Source: Chloroflexota bacterium (GTDB lineage Bacteria; Chloroflexota; Anaerolineae; J036; Brachytrichaceae). From it: a DNA stretch of 42,595 nucleotides. Below the pieces are notes generated by a model, which was not told where the DNA came from, did no database searches, and worked only from the letters and a program-made list of their open reading frames with translations. How positions within the stretch are numbered: position 1 is the stretch's first letter; each line of letters opens with the position of its first letter. Where the stretch lies: the NCBI GenBank assembly GCA_030550095.1, contig JAUQQA010000018.1, forward strand, positions 1 through 42,595. The letters run 5' to 3'. This document shows, piece by piece, positions 6,146 through 39,060 of this stretch. Position numbers and translations under genes: made by a program.

Positions 6146-9100
6146 ATGACGTCAACAGAGGCAAAACCGAGCACACCCAGCTCAACGCCTTACCAACCCG
6201 CCTCGCGCCTCAGTGTGTGGTGCGATCGCTTGATCGAGGCAGGTTGGCTAGCTGCGATCATCATCGTCCCGCTGTTTTTTAACATTTACTCCAGCCGCGT
6301 CTTTGAGCCAGACAAGCTCACCACGCTGCGCTCGATTGCTTTGGTGATGTCAGCGGCGTGGTTGGTGAAGTGGCTCGAGGAGCGGCGCAATCCGCAACGC
6401 GAGCAGGTGATCTCCTGGCGCACGCCGTTGGTGCTGCCCACGCTTATCCTCGTCGTGGTGTACCTGATCAGCACCGCGCTTTCCGTCGCACCGCGCACCA
6501 GCCTGCTCGGCTCTTATCAGCGCTTGCAAGGCACTTACACCACGTTGGCGTATATCGTGGTGTTTCTCATGATCCTGCAAGGGCTGCGCACGCGCACGCA
6601 ACTGGAGCGGTTGCTCACCGTGATGGTGCTGAACTCACTGCCCATCTCGGTGTATGGCGTGTATCAGCGCTTGCGGCTTGACCCGCTGCCGTGGGGCGGC
6701 GACACAGTGGAGCGCGTCGCCGGCAACATGGGCAACTCCATCTTCATTGCCGCCTACTTGGTGATTGTGTTCTTCATTAACCTTTACCGCATCACCGAGA
6801 GCGCCTTCGCCATCTTCAGCGAGAAGCAGCCGCGCTGGAGCGACGTGGTGCGTCTGGGGATCTACATCGTGATTGCGTTGTTCAACGCGGTGGTGATCCT
6901 CATCCTCGCAGGCAGCCGCGGGCCGCAGCTCGGCTGGCTGGGCGGCATGCTGTTCTTCCTCATGCTGCTTGTGCAGCTCATCCGCCGTCAGCGCACACGC
7001 CTTCTGCTCACGGCAGCCTCCATCGTCCTAGCGCTTGGGGGGCTTGGGTTCCTCGTCTTCCTGAACGTCACGCGCCCCGACCCTTCGTTTGCGTGGCTGC
7101 GCAGCTTTCCACTCTTCGACCGATTGAGCACAGTGCTCACCACCAGCGAGGGCACAAACGCCGTGCGCGTGTTGATCTGGGAGGGCACAGCGCAGCTTGT
7201 GGTGCCGCATGAGCCGCTGCAGATGCCCGACGGTACGCCCGACCGCTTCAACGCCATTCGCCCCCTGGTCGGTTACGGTCCTGAGTCCATGTACGTCGCC
7301 TACAACCGTTTCTACCCGCCCAAGCTAGCGTGGTTCGAGGCGCGCAACGCCTCGCCCGACCGCAGCCACAACGAGACGTGGGACGCTTTGGTTATCACAG
7401 GCTTGGTGGGGTTCATCGCTTACATGTTTCTGTTCATCAGCGTGCTCTACTACGGCACGAAATGGGTGGGCTTGATCGCCTCGCGGCTGGAAGCGTGGCT
7501 CTTCGTGGCGCTCTGGATCACTGGTGGCGGACTCGTCGGGGGCTACATGTTGCTGAGCGGTAACGCGCCGCTGTTTGGTGTTGGCTTGGCGGGCGGCATT
7601 GTGCTGTTGGGGTTGATGCCCTTCCTCTTCGTCAGCGCGTGGATCAACGCGCGGCGTGGTGACGATGTCGCAGTCGCTAGCACGCTCTCGGTGCGCGACC
7701 AGTTGCTGCTGATCGGGATCATCGCGGCGATCGTGGCGCATTTTGTGGAGATCCACACCGGGATCGCCATCGCAGCCACGCGCACCTACTTCTGGGCTTT
7801 GGTCGGCATTATGGCGGTGGTTGGGTTGGGCTTGGTGCGCGAGGAGTCACAACAGGTTGAAACTACACTACCCGCGACCAACAAGCCCGCCGAAAGCTCA
7901 AGCACTAAACGCCAACGCCGCGCAGCGCAATCGGCGCCCACGCGCGCGCCGCGCGCCCCCGCACTGGCTATGAGAGGCGCCAATTGGCTGGGCACTGTCA
8001 CCGCGTATGGGCTGATGCTCGGCTTGATCCTCGCTGTGTTGGCGTTTGACTTCGTCAACAACGCCACGCGCGCAGCTTCAGCTGGCGAGGTGTTCATCCG
8101 CGCCATCACTTTCCTACCGCAAGCCAACCGCACCAGCTACGGCATCTTGCTGATGATGGTGGGCACCCTCATCCTCGGCGTGGCATTGGTGTTGGCTGAG
8201 CTGCGCCGCAGCAACGTGTTGCGCACCAGCGCGCAAGTGAGCGCCGCCGCAGCACTGATGACGAGCATTGGGCTATTCCTCTGGGTGCTGATGGGCACGT
8301 TTATCGGGGGGCGATTGGCTGAGTTCACCTCGAGCACGCAGAACTCCATCGGCACTATCCTCGCTGTTGCCGACCAGCTCGGCTTGTTCCCGGCGTACCT
8401 CTACCTGCTGATCCTCGGTGTGATGATCGCAGCGGCGTTTGTGCTGCGCAATGAGAGCGAGCAAGCACCTACGGGCGCAGCTAGCCCTGCTGCCTGGGGT
8501 GTGCTTGCAGTTTCTGCGTTCGTCGTGCCGATTTGGGCAAGCTACAGCAATCTGCAACCTATCTCCGCGGACATTGTTTACAAGCAAGCCAGCCCATGGG
8601 ACCAACAGGGCGCAAACACACTTGCACCCGGCACCAACATCCAAGGCTGGGACATCGCCATCGAGCATTATCGCCGCGCCATTGACCTCGCGCGCAACGA
8701 GGACTTCTATTACCTATGGTTTGGGCGCGCACTGCTTGAGAAGGCGAAGTCCACAAGCAACCTGAGCGAGGAGCGGCGCTTCCCCGAAAATCTGCCCTAC
8801 ACCGCCATCATCGATCCGAATTCACCCTACTGGCAGCGTCCCACGCCTGACGCGCTGCCGTCGGTATCGCTGAGCCGTGAGGACCTGTTGACGGCGGCGC
8901 GGGTGATCCTTGAAGAGGCGCGCGTGATCAACCCGCTCAACACAGATCACAGCGCCAACCTTGCGCGCATGTGGCGCCAAGCCGCAGAGATCACCAGCGA
9001 CCCAGCCCTGCGCGAACAGCGCTTCCGCAACTCCGACCGCGAGTATGCCATCGCCATCAGCCTCAGCCCAAACAACGCTGCCATCTGGAACGAGTGGGCG

Positions 9101-36166: not shown

Positions 36167-36245
36167 GCCCAACAATCCGCGGCTTAGCCGCAGCGCGGAG
36201 CGAGCACAGCGAGCGGAGCTTTGTCGGCTAAGCTGCGTGTTGGGC
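36167..36245 (-). repeat. attC-like site A
   Basis: 79 bp with ends GCCCAAC (36167-36173) and GTTGGGC (36239-36245), matching the RYYYAAC/GTTRRRY cores of attC. Inner arms CGGCTTAGCCG and CGGCTAAGCTG are complementary with mismatches, as expected of a folded single strand. It lies 14 bases behind the stop of the nuclease-like gene. Confidence 0.72.
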
Positions 36246-36259
36246 GGCAACTTCGCTGC

Positions 36260-36739
36260 TTACTCAAAGATACCAAGAATATCCCAGCGATCTTTCCATT
36301 GCTCGAGCCTACTCTCGTCAATCGAGTGATGCGTAGAGTTTGGATTTCCAGGACGTTTTCCGCCGTGTTTGTTCAGATACTCTTGGTGTGTCCTATAGAT
36401 GTTGTCCTTTATCCACCATTCTGGCACGACCCAGTAGCGCGGCGCTGTGTTTATATCACCCAAATCAACAAACACCCAGAAATTGCTTTCGTCATCTTTT
36501 GGAGACATTGGCTGGCTGCCGACAATACTTGAATGCCACGTCTTTCCACCACGCTTGGTCCTAACCTGAATGTAAACCGTGCGACTTTCATCACTGTTGC
36601 AAGCGATAACATCAATCTTGGGCATATTACCAGCAACAGGTACGGCAAACGCCCCGCGTTTGTTCAACTCAGCGACGACAAAATACTCACCTGCACGACC
36701 GACTTGTTGAGTTGTTGCTCTGCGCGACTTTGCTGCCAT
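36260..36739 (-). CDS. Cassette gene 1: PD-(D/E)XK nuclease-like protein
   Basis: 159 residues. After a basic start, GRAGEYFVVAELNKRGAFAV, PKIDVIACNS and VYIQVRTKRGGK follow the order E, then D, then (Q)xK of PD-(D/E)XK endonuclease-like proteins. The usual IQVKT is IQVRTK here, so catalysis is not assured. The C-terminal half is Trp-rich (WVVPEWWIKDN, LEQWKDRWDIL). It is AT-rich relative to its surroundings. It begins 26 bases after site B and ends 14 bases before site A, filling its cassette. A defence or restriction role is plausible but unproven. Confidence 0.72.
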   Translation of the reverse strand: MAAKSRRATTQQVGRAGEYFVVAELNKRGAFAVPVAGNMPKIDVIACNSDESRTVYIQVRTKRGGKTWHSSIVGSQPMSPKDDESNFWVFVDLGDINTAPRYWVVPEWWIKDNIYRTHQEYLNKHGGKRPGNPNSTHHSIDESRLEQWKDRWDILGIFE

Positions 36740-36765
36740 AGGAAATCTCTGTACTGCTCGCTACC

Positions 36766-36837
36766 GCCCAACGGTTTACGCTTCACCTGCACCGCGAAGC
36801 GCAGCGGAGCGGCGTCAGGTGTAAGCGCGTGTTGGGC
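36766..36837 (-). repeat. attC-like site B
   Basis: 72 bp with perfect GCCCAAC (36766-36772) and GTTGGGC (36831-36837) ends. Arms ACGCTTCACCTG and CAGGTGTAAGCG pair with one mismatch. The loop CGCGAAGCGCAGCGGAGCGG is shared with site D at 18 of 20 bases. Only 3 bases separate it from the stop of the preceding cassette gene. Confidence 0.75.
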
Positions 36838-36840
36838 GCA

Positions 36841-37404
36841 CTATTTGTGTTGTTCCAGGTATTTTTTGCCACTATCAGTTATCTCCCATACCCCACGAGG
36901 AGAGTTGGAAGAGAGCAACCCTTCTTTGACCATTGCAGCTCGTGCCCATTGAGCGGTATTCCGCCATCGTGGAATAGTAGGATCAGATGGCAGAGTCTGG
37001 CGGTCATAAGCATTTAGCTTGTGGCTCATTCGTATTTCCACTTTGTCAAGCACATCATTCATAGGAGCAGCACCACCTAACTCAACCAGGGTCTGTAAAA
37101 TTGGAATTCGAAATTCATCTTCGGGGGTGCGTAGCCCATGCTGTAATTTCTTATATCGGGGTGCTTTATGCTTTCGTGGTTTCGGGGGGACAATAGACGC
37201 AAATATATTGAGCCATTCCTTTTGCAAGTCTTTGACACGATTTCGAAAGGCCGTCATCTGTGAGCCTTTCTCTATCAGGTCGCGTGCTATCTCGTATTTT
37301 CCATTTTCAAATGCCTGAGCGCCTTCTCGATTAAGGGCGGCAATGGCATTTTCAATTTCTTCTAAAACTATATCAAAGGCGACAGCCACTTCGTTTTGGT
37401 TCAT
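36841..37404 (-). CDS. Cassette gene 2: winged-helix protein resembling the Mrr N-terminal domain
   Basis: 187 residues. The N-terminal ~85 residues are helical (VLEEIENAIAALNREGAQAF, then VKDLQKEWLNIF). The C-terminal ~100 residues match the winged-helix Mrr_N domain: IPILQTLVELGGAAPMNDVL, WRNTAQWARAAMVKEGLL, SPRGVWEITDSGKKYL. In Mrr restriction enzymes this domain precedes a nuclease domain; here no nuclease follows, so it could be a DNA-binding or regulatory protein. It is the most AT-rich gene of the window and fits tightly between sites C and B. Confidence 0.78.
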   Translation of the reverse strand: MNQNEVAVAFDIVLEEIENAIAALNREGAQAFENGKYEIARDLIEKGSQMTAFRNRVKDLQKEWLNIFASIVPPKPRKHKAPRYKKLQHGLRTPEDEFRIPILQTLVELGGAAPMNDVLDKVEIRMSHKLNAYDRQTLPSDPTIPRWRNTAQWARAAMVKEGLLSSNSPRGVWEITDSGKKYLEQHK

Positions 37405-37443
37405 TGTTAGCGTCTCCCTTTCAAGCTAGGCAAATCATTTTGC

Positions 37444-37570
37444 GCCCAACGGCAGGTTTTAGCGGCCGCAGCGGCGCGAGCAAGACGCCTTGGCCTACAC
37501 TCAACTCCGCTGGCTCGCAGCGCATACCCCGAAGCAGCGAAGCCGCTGTCCGCCGCAAATGGTGTTGGGC
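37444..37570 (-). repeat. attC-like site C
   Basis: 127 bp with perfect GCCCAAC (37444-37450) and GTTGGGC (37564-37570) ends. Inner arms AGCGGCCGCAGCGGC and GCCGCTGTCCGCCGC pair imperfectly. The ~60-bp centre is longer than in A, B and D but within the known attC size range. Confidence 0.65.
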
Positions 37571-38079
37571 ATATCCACCCGTCCACCGCAAGACACCATT
37601 GCCTTCACGCGCCTATTTCTCCCTGCGGGCGAGACCCTATATCGCCATAGCCACACCCGCAAATTTGTCAAGCACCATCGCGGGCAAAACCCCACAGCCC
37701 AAACACCACCTGCCTCTCAAGCGCCCCGCCAGGCAAACGCGACGGCGGGCAAACCAACCTGGCAAACCCAAAGCCCGCCCCCGTAACCAGCGCCCCGCCC
37801 AAGAGCGGAAGGACAATGCCCGCCAGCTCGCTTGCCAGCCCGCGCGCCCTGGCTATCAGACCTCACGCCAGGCCAATCCCGCCCAGGGACAAGGGAATGC
37901 TCGGGGTCAGTCGCGGGCGTTGACCGCGGGCAATACACCCAGCCCATCTCATCCCAGGCCAACCTGCACTTTGCCGAGCGAAGCTCAAAAGCGGGCAACA
38001 CCCCACGGTAGGCAATGGCTCGCAGGCTCGAAAGGCTCGCCAACCACCATGTTCGCCTGATAAAGTTCAACCTTTTTGC
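37571..38079 (-). other. Cassette 3: no convincing gene, possible promoter
   Basis: 509 bp between sites C and D. Frames on both strands are open in places but low in complexity and without recognisable domains. The stretch repeats GCGGGCAA (TTGCCCGC on the minus strand) four times, near 37679, 37747, 37927 and 37991, and is Pro/Gly/Arg-coding in every frame. ORF-less cassettes are known in chromosomal integrons. A minus-strand promoter near 37644-37671 points toward the Mrr-N-type gene. Confidence 0.55.
37644..37671 (-). promoter_or_regulatory. Cassette-borne promoter
   Basis: Minus-strand TTGACA (37666-37671), a perfect -35 hexamer, and TATGGC (37644-37649) with a 16-base spacer. It would drive transcription through site C into cassette genes 2 and 1. 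Confidence 0.45.
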
Positions 38080-38147
38080 GCCCACGGCAGGCGTTTCAGC
38101 CGCCCGCGTAGCGTAGCGGAGCGGGGCGGCTGAAACGCGTGTTAGCC
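38080..38147 (-). repeat. attC-like site D with degenerate cores
   Basis: 68 bp. The inner stem GCGTTTCAGCCGCCC/GGGCGGCTGAAACGC is a perfect 15-bp repeat and the loop resembles that of site B. The outer cores are damaged: GCCCAC lacks an A and the other end is GTTAGCC instead of GTTGGGC. It is 17 bases behind the Doc fragment stop. Probably no longer recombinogenic. Confidence 0.55.
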
Positions 38148-38164: not shown

Positions 38165-38371
38165 TCAACCCCATGGCTTAATGTGGGCATTCAGCCAGCG
38201 TACAAACTCATCACAGTTCATCTTGCCCGACGCAACCTGAAGGATCACGTTCTCCTGCTCGTCCACTGTTGCTTGAATCTCATATCCATTCAACACAAGG
38301 AACGTTTCTATCGCCGCATGGGCTGTCCGCTTGTTACCGTCCACAAAAGGTATCATCAGTCGCCGACACAT
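38165..38371 (-). pseudogene. doc: Doc (death-on-curing) toxin C-terminal fragment
   Basis: 68 codons covering the second half of a Doc/Fic-fold toxin: IPFVDGNKRTAHAAIETFLV, LNGYEI and VASGKMNCDEFVRWLNAHI. The Fic motif HPFxDGNxR has lost its catalytic histidine (IPF in place of HPF), and the N-terminal half, including the region before the motif, is not found upstream in any frame. No Phd antitoxin is seen nearby. Doc phosphorylates EF-Tu; this copy should be dead. Toxin-antitoxin genes are common integron cassette cargo, and it stands in cassette position ahead of site D. Confidence 0.75.
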
Positions 38372-38779
38372 TGACGATCCGAGGTGGGGCGAGGATTACC
38401 ACTGCAGAAAGCGTCCCTTTCATCTCTCAATCTCTCCAGGTGAGGTGCTCAATATCGCGCAACTCCTTATGATTATAGCCATTCAGCCAACGCCACCATC
38501 GGGATCAAGCCAAAACTTTGCGCTCTATCTGGTCGAAGCATAGGTGCAATTCGTGATTCGCTTGAATCTGGAAGCTCATTTGCCCGAGTGCTGGGATGCC
38601 GACCAGAAGTCAGCGGAAGCAATGATTCACCGTCAGGTGCGCCTCAAGGACGACGGGTGGAAGGCTACGCCGAGCCGTCGTGGGTTATGGCTGAACCCAA
38701 TCCCGAGCACAGCCTAGGCTTGCATCACGCGCGCATAACGATAGAAGAGCACCCCGCGATTTGAAGCACGGGCTAGAGA
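38372..38779. other. Unassigned spacer between Doc fragment and IS remnant
   Basis: About 400 bp. Short frames occur on both strands, for example a minus-strand WLNGYNHKELRDIEHL near 38430-38500, but none has a start, length or domain I can support. It looks like scrambled ends of former genes. Confidence 0.4.
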
Positions 38780-39060
38780 TGACCCGAGTGATGAACAAAC
38801 GGTAGGACTCCTTGGAGAAGATGCTGGCACTGCTGGCTAGTGTATGCCATCGGCTTGTTGGTCGGGGAGGCCTGCGCGACGCGCTATCTCACCATCGGCG
38901 GATGCGTCCACATCACAGCCCAGGAGGAACAAGTGGCGATGCCGATTCTGAGTTGTTTGTTTTGCTCAAGCAGAAGTGGTCTGTTTCGCCACTGCGCTAG
39001 CAGGCCATCTGGAACGCCGCCTTGACCGCTTTCGTGGCCATTGTTTATTCCACTGTCCCA
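38780..39060 (+). pseudogene. IS4-like transposase C-terminal remnant
   Basis: Pieces of one transposase C-terminus appear in shifting frames: EMTRVMNKR (then TAG), DSLEKMLALLA, in the next frame YAIGLLVGEACATRY, then LFVLLKQKWSVSPLR (then TAG) and QAIWNAALTAFVAIVYSTVP. The order and motifs (EKLLALLA..GLLVGE..LFVLLKQKW) are those following the last catalytic block in IS4-type elements. At least two frameshifts and two stops make it non-functional. It lies just past the stop of argS on the opposite strand and marks the right edge of the mobile region. Confidence 0.55.

Follow-up and report, generated by a model that had tools for sequence, protein, structure and literature searches.

The 42,595-nucleotide contig analysed here, from a Chloroflexota bacterium (the whole stretch is referred to as the window), carries two short genes side by side on one strand. 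A first-pass annotation had read a PD-(D/E)XK-like core in one of them (gene 1) and an Mrr_N winged helix in the other (gene 2), two kinds of domain that are often fused in Mrr-type restriction enzymes, and had offered two choices: a split restriction or defence pair, or two unrelated defence cassettes. Do the two proteins work together, or do they only share an array? The reading that we hold with good confidence is a CALIN with two unrelated cassettes. Gene 1 would encode a mobile PD-(D/E)XK nuclease-like protein, probably inactive here, and gene 2 an orphaned DNA-binding partner of restriction systems.

The cassette array

Both open reading frames were confirmed on the minus strand, in an array located downstream of argS. 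The elements of the array are given here in minus-strand order.

38165–38371, minus strand: partial Doc (death-on-curing) toxin gene, reduced to its C-terminal half (TIGR01550 positions 67–120)
38078–38146, minus strand: fourth attC, degenerate, R' one base short (recognised by eye and by an inverted repeat)
37450–38084, minus strand: cassette without a convincing gene, C-rich on the plus strand
37444–37570, minus strand: 127-bp attC belonging to the next cassette upstream, with perfect cores
36772–37449, minus strand: gene 2 cassette, full extent
36841–37404, minus strand: gene 2, 187 aa, with a two-helix hairpin (3–71), a flexible linker and an Mrr_N winged helix (97–184)
36766–36837, minus strand: 72-bp attC belonging to the gene 2 cassette, with perfect cores and one extrahelical base
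36173–36771, minus strand: gene 1 cassette, spanning R' to R'; the start codon follows the preceding R' at 33 bp, a spacing shared by the copies L042 and L043
36260–36739, minus strand: gene 1, 159 aa, PD-(D/E)XK nuclease-like, with E18, D43 and Q58 kept and the catalytic K60 changed to Arg
36167–36245, minus strand: 79-bp attC belonging to the gene 1 cassette, with perfect R'' GCCCAAC and R' GTTGGGC

Three of the attC sites are perfect, with RYYYAAC...GTTRRRY cores that are complementary at 7/7 positions and a stem between them. In comparison, 0–2 hits (mean 0.2) were obtained per dinucleotide shuffle of the window (n=20 shuffles), under a rule that tolerates one core mismatch and is looser than the three perfect sites. 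Each of the two genes stands alone in its cassette and is followed by an attC with paired R'' and R' cores (at 36167–36245 and 36766–36837), and the earlier description of adjacent same-strand cassettes, each with its own attC, is thus confirmed. No integron integrase above the TIGR02249 cut-off was found in the whole genome (97% complete), and the array is therefore classified as a CALIN. No intI adjoins it, as would be found in a complete integron.

The GC contents of gene 1 and gene 2 are 47.9% and 45.4%, compared to 61.7% for the window. The AT-richness noted before is real; the recent import that had been read from it is less well supported, because the closest copy of gene 1 has already diverged to a dS of 0.33, synonymous divergence between gene 2 and its nearest copy is saturated, and the cassette copies elsewhere are also AT-rich.

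Other parts of the array were also inspected. The cassette at 37450–38084 has a GC skew of -0.16 on the plus strand (C over G), and GCGGGCAA-like words recur in it. The Doc gene has lost its 5' half and adjoins the degenerate attC. The segment between the array and argS (38540–39060, plus strand) is non-coding and has, by eye, the look of a transposase relic. A toxin–antitoxin pair was considered and rejected, as neither protein matches a toxin–antitoxin family and the nearby Doc remnant is truncated. An Rfam scan gave nothing above the gathering score. A structured RNA was likewise rejected, the sole match (JUMPstart, E 0.33) overlapping an attC and being attributable to chance.

Gene 1: fold, active site and spread

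Gene 1 has no Pfam match of its own, and profile searches returned only weak YraN-like matches. Among its relatives, PDDEXK_5 is matched by 7/55 and Mrr_cat, weakly, by 7/55. The AlphaFold2 model (pLDDT 89.9, pTM 0.84) contains the PD-(D/E)XK core fold. The top match of this model with the program Foldseek is archaeal Hjc, and SPARDA nucleases were also found. A second aligner places I-Ssp6803I first (Z 12.2, rmsd 2.5 over 116 residues), followed by SPARDA DREN (Z 10.5) and then Hjc (Z 9.9). A search by sequence against solved structures found no relatives of either gene 1 or gene 2. The PD-(D/E)XK-like core proposed by the first-pass annotation therefore stands, on the profile matches of the homologues, the conserved E18, D43 and Q58, and the matches of the model to PD-(D/E)XK enzymes. 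The profile searches that it had suggested gave a direct match for gene 2 (PF14338, see below) and none for gene 1, where PDDEXK_5 appears in the relatives instead.

The catalytic set consists of E18, D43, Q58 and K60. The metal-binding residues E18, D43 and Q58 are conserved, and the window copy keeps all three. The collection scan for relatives used patterns at positions 16–24 and 35–43. Some of the conservation of E18 and D43 therefore follows from the search itself, but none of that of Q58 and K60 does. Position 60, in the Q-x-K motif, is Lys in 75/75 aligned relatives and Arg in the window, which consequently lacks the catalytic lysine. The codon is AGG in the window as compared to AAG, a single transition. 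The change is one of 11 differences from the closest copy (in the Chloroflexi genome G068), and it arose on the branch of the window, as Lys is also present in L043, a more distant copy. The dN/dS relative to the closest copy is 0.10 (dS 0.33), and the gene 1 family is therefore under purifying selection. PD-(D/E)XK enzymes that lose this lysine usually cleave far less or not at all. From its sequence, the gene 1 protein of the window is probably catalytically dead or strongly impaired, unless R60 is an assembly error. Its relatives are probably DNA nucleases. A relative in Vibrio campbellii (37% identity) has lost D43 and the Gln of Q-x-K.

Two other readings bear on this protein. The window copy could be active, with R60 an assembly or sequencing error or with arginine sufficing for catalysis. 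The single AGG/AAG transition, the intact gene and the dN/dS to the nearest copy favour this reading, which we consider unlikely given that every aligned relative keeps Lys and that the substitution falls on a canonical catalytic position of the fold. Somewhat less doubtful is the idea that the relatives serve in DNA repair or recombination, in the manner of Holliday junction resolvases, and are not defence nucleases. The rank of Hjc with both aligners and the weak YraN matches would agree with it. However, the homing endonuclease and SPARDA nucleases match equally well or better, the relatives have spread as cassettes, and an N6-adenine methylase gene lies downstream in three of the closest relatives (see below). 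The likeness of gene 1 to Holliday junction resolvases is one of predicted fold. The preferred reading of gene 1 is a mobile cassette with a single-domain PD-(D/E)XK nuclease-like protein, whose predicted fold would be closest to those of I-Ssp6803I, SPARDA DREN and Hjc.

The mobility of gene 1 is visible in other genomes. A copy with 93% identity is located in the complete integron of G068, where an integrase (TIGR02249, 485 bits, cut-off 265) is followed by cassettes with their own attC sites, with gene 1 last and then an hsdM-like gene. A second copy (87% identity) belongs to the complete integron of an armatimonad, where it follows a divergent integrase (441 bits) on a complete Chthonomonadaceae chromosome. 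The same cassette thus lies beside TIGR02249 integrases in both hosts, and the distance from the R' core to the start codon of gene 1 is 33 bp in the window, the 93% copy and the 87% copy alike. Degraded copies of the cassette are present in a planctomycete MAG and another MAG (L046 and L050). Relatives with 70–82% identity were found in Verrucomicrobia, Kapaibacteria, Caldilineaceae, Anaerolineaceae and Meiothermus, several of them without a recognisable attC. Altogether, relatives with 70–93% identity span Chloroflexi, Armatimonadota, Verrucomicrobia, Kapaibacteria, a planctomycete and Meiothermus, and another (56%) is in a Heimdallarchaeota MAG; most are MAG records, and individual taxon assignments could stem from misbinning. 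With closely similar sequences in about six phyla, this nuclease cassette clearly exemplifies the movement of cassettes from phylum to phylum.

A phage or plasmid origin was examined and rejected for both genes. Neither has a match among phage proteins. In plasmid records, gene 1 has three weak matches and gene 2 has one, and scans of viral contigs gave no gene 1 relative and a few distant gene 2 relatives.

There is no dominant partner in the neighborhood of gene 1. Among the 102 nearest neighbors of its relatives, five matches are to DNA methylases. In L042, L043 and L052, which are among the closest relatives, the next gene downstream encodes an N6-adenine DNA methylase, hsdM-like or MAD2-like. 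Separately, the first cassette of the G068 integron (L027:4399-5016) and a locus in the Chloroflexota genome G059 (L037:8800-9417) encode nearly the same 205-aa protein, to which no family is assigned. G059 also carries a broken integron integrase.

Gene 2 and its gene neighborhoods

The match of gene 2 to Mrr_N (PF14338) is clear (E=1.3e-18, 67.3 bits, cut-off 29.5). The winged helix of the first-pass annotation is therefore present, although it occupies the C-terminal half of the protein (residues 97–184) behind a helical hairpin. In the AlphaFold2 model, which was built on five sequences and has a pTM of 0.52, residues 3–71 form the two-helix hairpin and residues 75–82 are disordered. Comparison of the model with known structures gave winged-helix matches only, none with an E value under 0.001. 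Mrr_N is matched in 7/7 family members tested. The hairpin may mediate dimerisation or the binding of a partner, and gene 2 would be a stand-alone DNA-binding protein in which this hairpin is joined to the Mrr_N winged helix.

Gene 2 also travels. A copy with 84% identity over its full length is present in another genome (G207), flanked by attC-like sites, and gene 1 is absent. This copy precedes a second cassette whose product has the N-terminal domain alone. Three similar attC-like repeats (CCGCCCGGCGGCACGGCTTTGAAAAA...) lie between the cassettes there (L152:4950-7700), of a type unlike the attC of the window.

The surroundings of the relatives are informative. In 22 non-cassette contexts, picked by homology alone, a restriction or defence-type enzyme is beside or near the gene 2 relative in 13, and in seven of these it is a type IIG (Eco57I-like) enzyme. 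The enzymes at the 13 loci are as follows.

L157: type IIG, Eco57I-like, 4-bp overlap with the gene 2 relative
L161: type IIG, 3-bp gap to the gene 2 relative, PLD/SNF2 helicase on the other side
L162: type IIG, 17-bp gap to the gene 2 relative
L039: type IIG, Eco57I-like, near the gene 2 relative
L194: type IIG with an SNF2 helicase upstream of it; an in-frame stop interrupts the gene 2 copy
L205: type IIG, with an EVE-domain gene lying between
L206:1-5988 (G480, Kapaibacteria MAG): overlapping operon of an SNF2-type helicase, an N-terminally extended gene 2 relative and a type IIG enzyme
L195: type ISP enzyme near the gene 2 relative
L153: ResIII, 4-bp overlap with the gene 2 relative
L154: DUF499 near the gene 2 relative
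L159: JetC-like ATPase near the gene 2 relative
L029 and L031: PLD/SNF2 helicases near the gene 2 relative; L031 is from the genus of the window itself

In the L206 operon, the gene 2 relative overlaps the type IIG gene by 4 bp and the helicase gene by 11 bp. The count of 13/22 is set against an informal control and not a formal background rate; in this control, Eco57I is outside the 25 most-matched families among the 102 nearest neighbors of gene 1 relatives.

Two further features were noted by eye. On the viral-collection contig of L195 (5674–6564), the gene 2-like part is joined behind an ArsR-like helix-turn-helix, which, judged from sequence, would fit a regulator role. In L194, a sigma-70-like protein is encoded at 6577–7767, just downstream of the gene 2 relative, and its N-terminal part resembles the N-terminus of the neighboring type IIG enzyme.

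Relatives adjoin or overlap a type IIG gene at seven loci, and the likeliest role of gene 2 is that of a DNA-binding accessory or regulator in such restriction systems. The chromosomal relatives would be the small partner of such systems, often of a type IIG enzyme with SNF2 or PLD helicases, and their winged helix most likely reads the target DNA or regulates the operon. No type IIG enzyme is present beside gene 2 of the window, in the array or its immediate flanks, and this copy would be an orphan without such a partner.

Probably separate passengers of one array

The evidence for two separate passengers comes from where each gene is found alone. No gene 2 relative turned up in the flanking DNA, up to about 5 kb, that was retrieved for about 80 relatives of gene 1. 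The nearest approach is in L083, where a complete Mrr enzyme adjoins a distant gene 1 relative, 7 bp upstream. A profile search of 400 Chloroflexota genomes found gene 2 in 36 and gene 1 in 15, and both only in the genome of the window and in none of the 399 others. With 35 and 14 carriers among those 399, chance predicts 1.2 shared genomes and gives none with a probability of 0.27, so the zero is weak as a test and argues against an obligate pair, less against a loose or rare association. Of a set of 40 genomes that carry gene 1, a gene 2-like match occurs in six, always away from the gene 1 locus. A close copy of each gene is located in a cassette array of another host without the other gene.

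These observations bear on a split Mrr-like restriction system, in which gene 2 would recognise DNA and gene 1 would cleave it from an adjacent cassette. The two genes are adjacent on the same strand and combine an Mrr_N domain with a nuclease fold, Mrr_cat is weakly matched by some gene 1 relatives, and the Mrr enzyme of L083 hints at such a link. The pair was nevertheless rejected, as each gene moves alone and no shared locus was found, nor any shared genome besides that of the window among the 400. The catalytic lysine is gone from the window's gene 1, which makes a split restriction enzyme unlikely, and the usual partners of gene 2 are large type IIG enzymes and helicases. Mrr_N and Mrr_cat are not found in one protein here, Mrr_N being in gene 2 only, and joint inheritance of the two halves is not seen in the flanks or in the 400- and 40-genome sets, whose power is low. 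We consider a split Mrr-like system highly improbable. The first-pass annotation had tied its proposal to co-occurrence in other genomes and to a nuclease fold for gene 1: the fold is predicted, the co-occurrence was not seen, and of its two choices the unrelated cassettes are the one that fits. The CALIN downstream of argS would thus hold two cassettes that are array-mates by position only.

Integrons are known in Chloroflexota (PMC9668308), and their role as stores of anti-phage genes is established according to PMC12444791, which cites papers of 2025. As in such integron and CALIN arrays, the cassettes here are attC-bounded, have single genes and have defence-type products; unlike in those arrays, neither gene is a named PADLOC defence gene (gene 2 has a weak partial match to a type IV enzyme model), and an anti-phage function is putative for both. 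Gene 2 shares the Mrr_N winged helix with the Mrr type IV restriction endonuclease, and the gene 1 family is distantly related to the Mrr_cat fold. However, in Mrr the winged helix precedes the catalytic domain within a single chain, whereas the winged helix of gene 2 is C-terminal and without Mrr_cat, and gene 1 is an independent cassette. Gene 1 is predicted to share its fold with Hjc, I-Ssp6803I and SPARDA DREN; it differs from them in having no sequence match to any solved structure and, in the window copy, in having Arg in place of the catalytic Lys. Winged-helix fusion endonucleases that read N6-methyladenine, some of which co-occur with Eco57I-like type IIG methylases (47 cases; PMC11037411), resemble gene 2 in placing a winged helix in a restriction setting. 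Those proteins are fused to HNH, GIY-YIG or PLD nucleases, whereas gene 2 has no nuclease domain and has a different N-terminal hairpin.

No paper on a family with the hairpin plus Mrr_N was found in the open-licence literature. Tentatively, gene 2 would be the founding member of a family of winged-helix accessory proteins that has not been described before, built from a helical hairpin and Mrr_N. Such proteins would work as one unit with type IIG (Eco57I-like) enzymes and SNF2/PLD helicases in several phyla, and the family would have been mobilised alone in an integron cassette, perhaps so that the protein controls resident restriction systems or is fed into them. The cassette pair itself is ordinary, as integrons are known to store defence genes, and the gene 2 family is the lead worth following. 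Genes of this unnamed winged-helix family overlap those of type IIG enzymes and helicases again and again, which points to an overlooked subunit or regulator of a widespread class of restriction systems.
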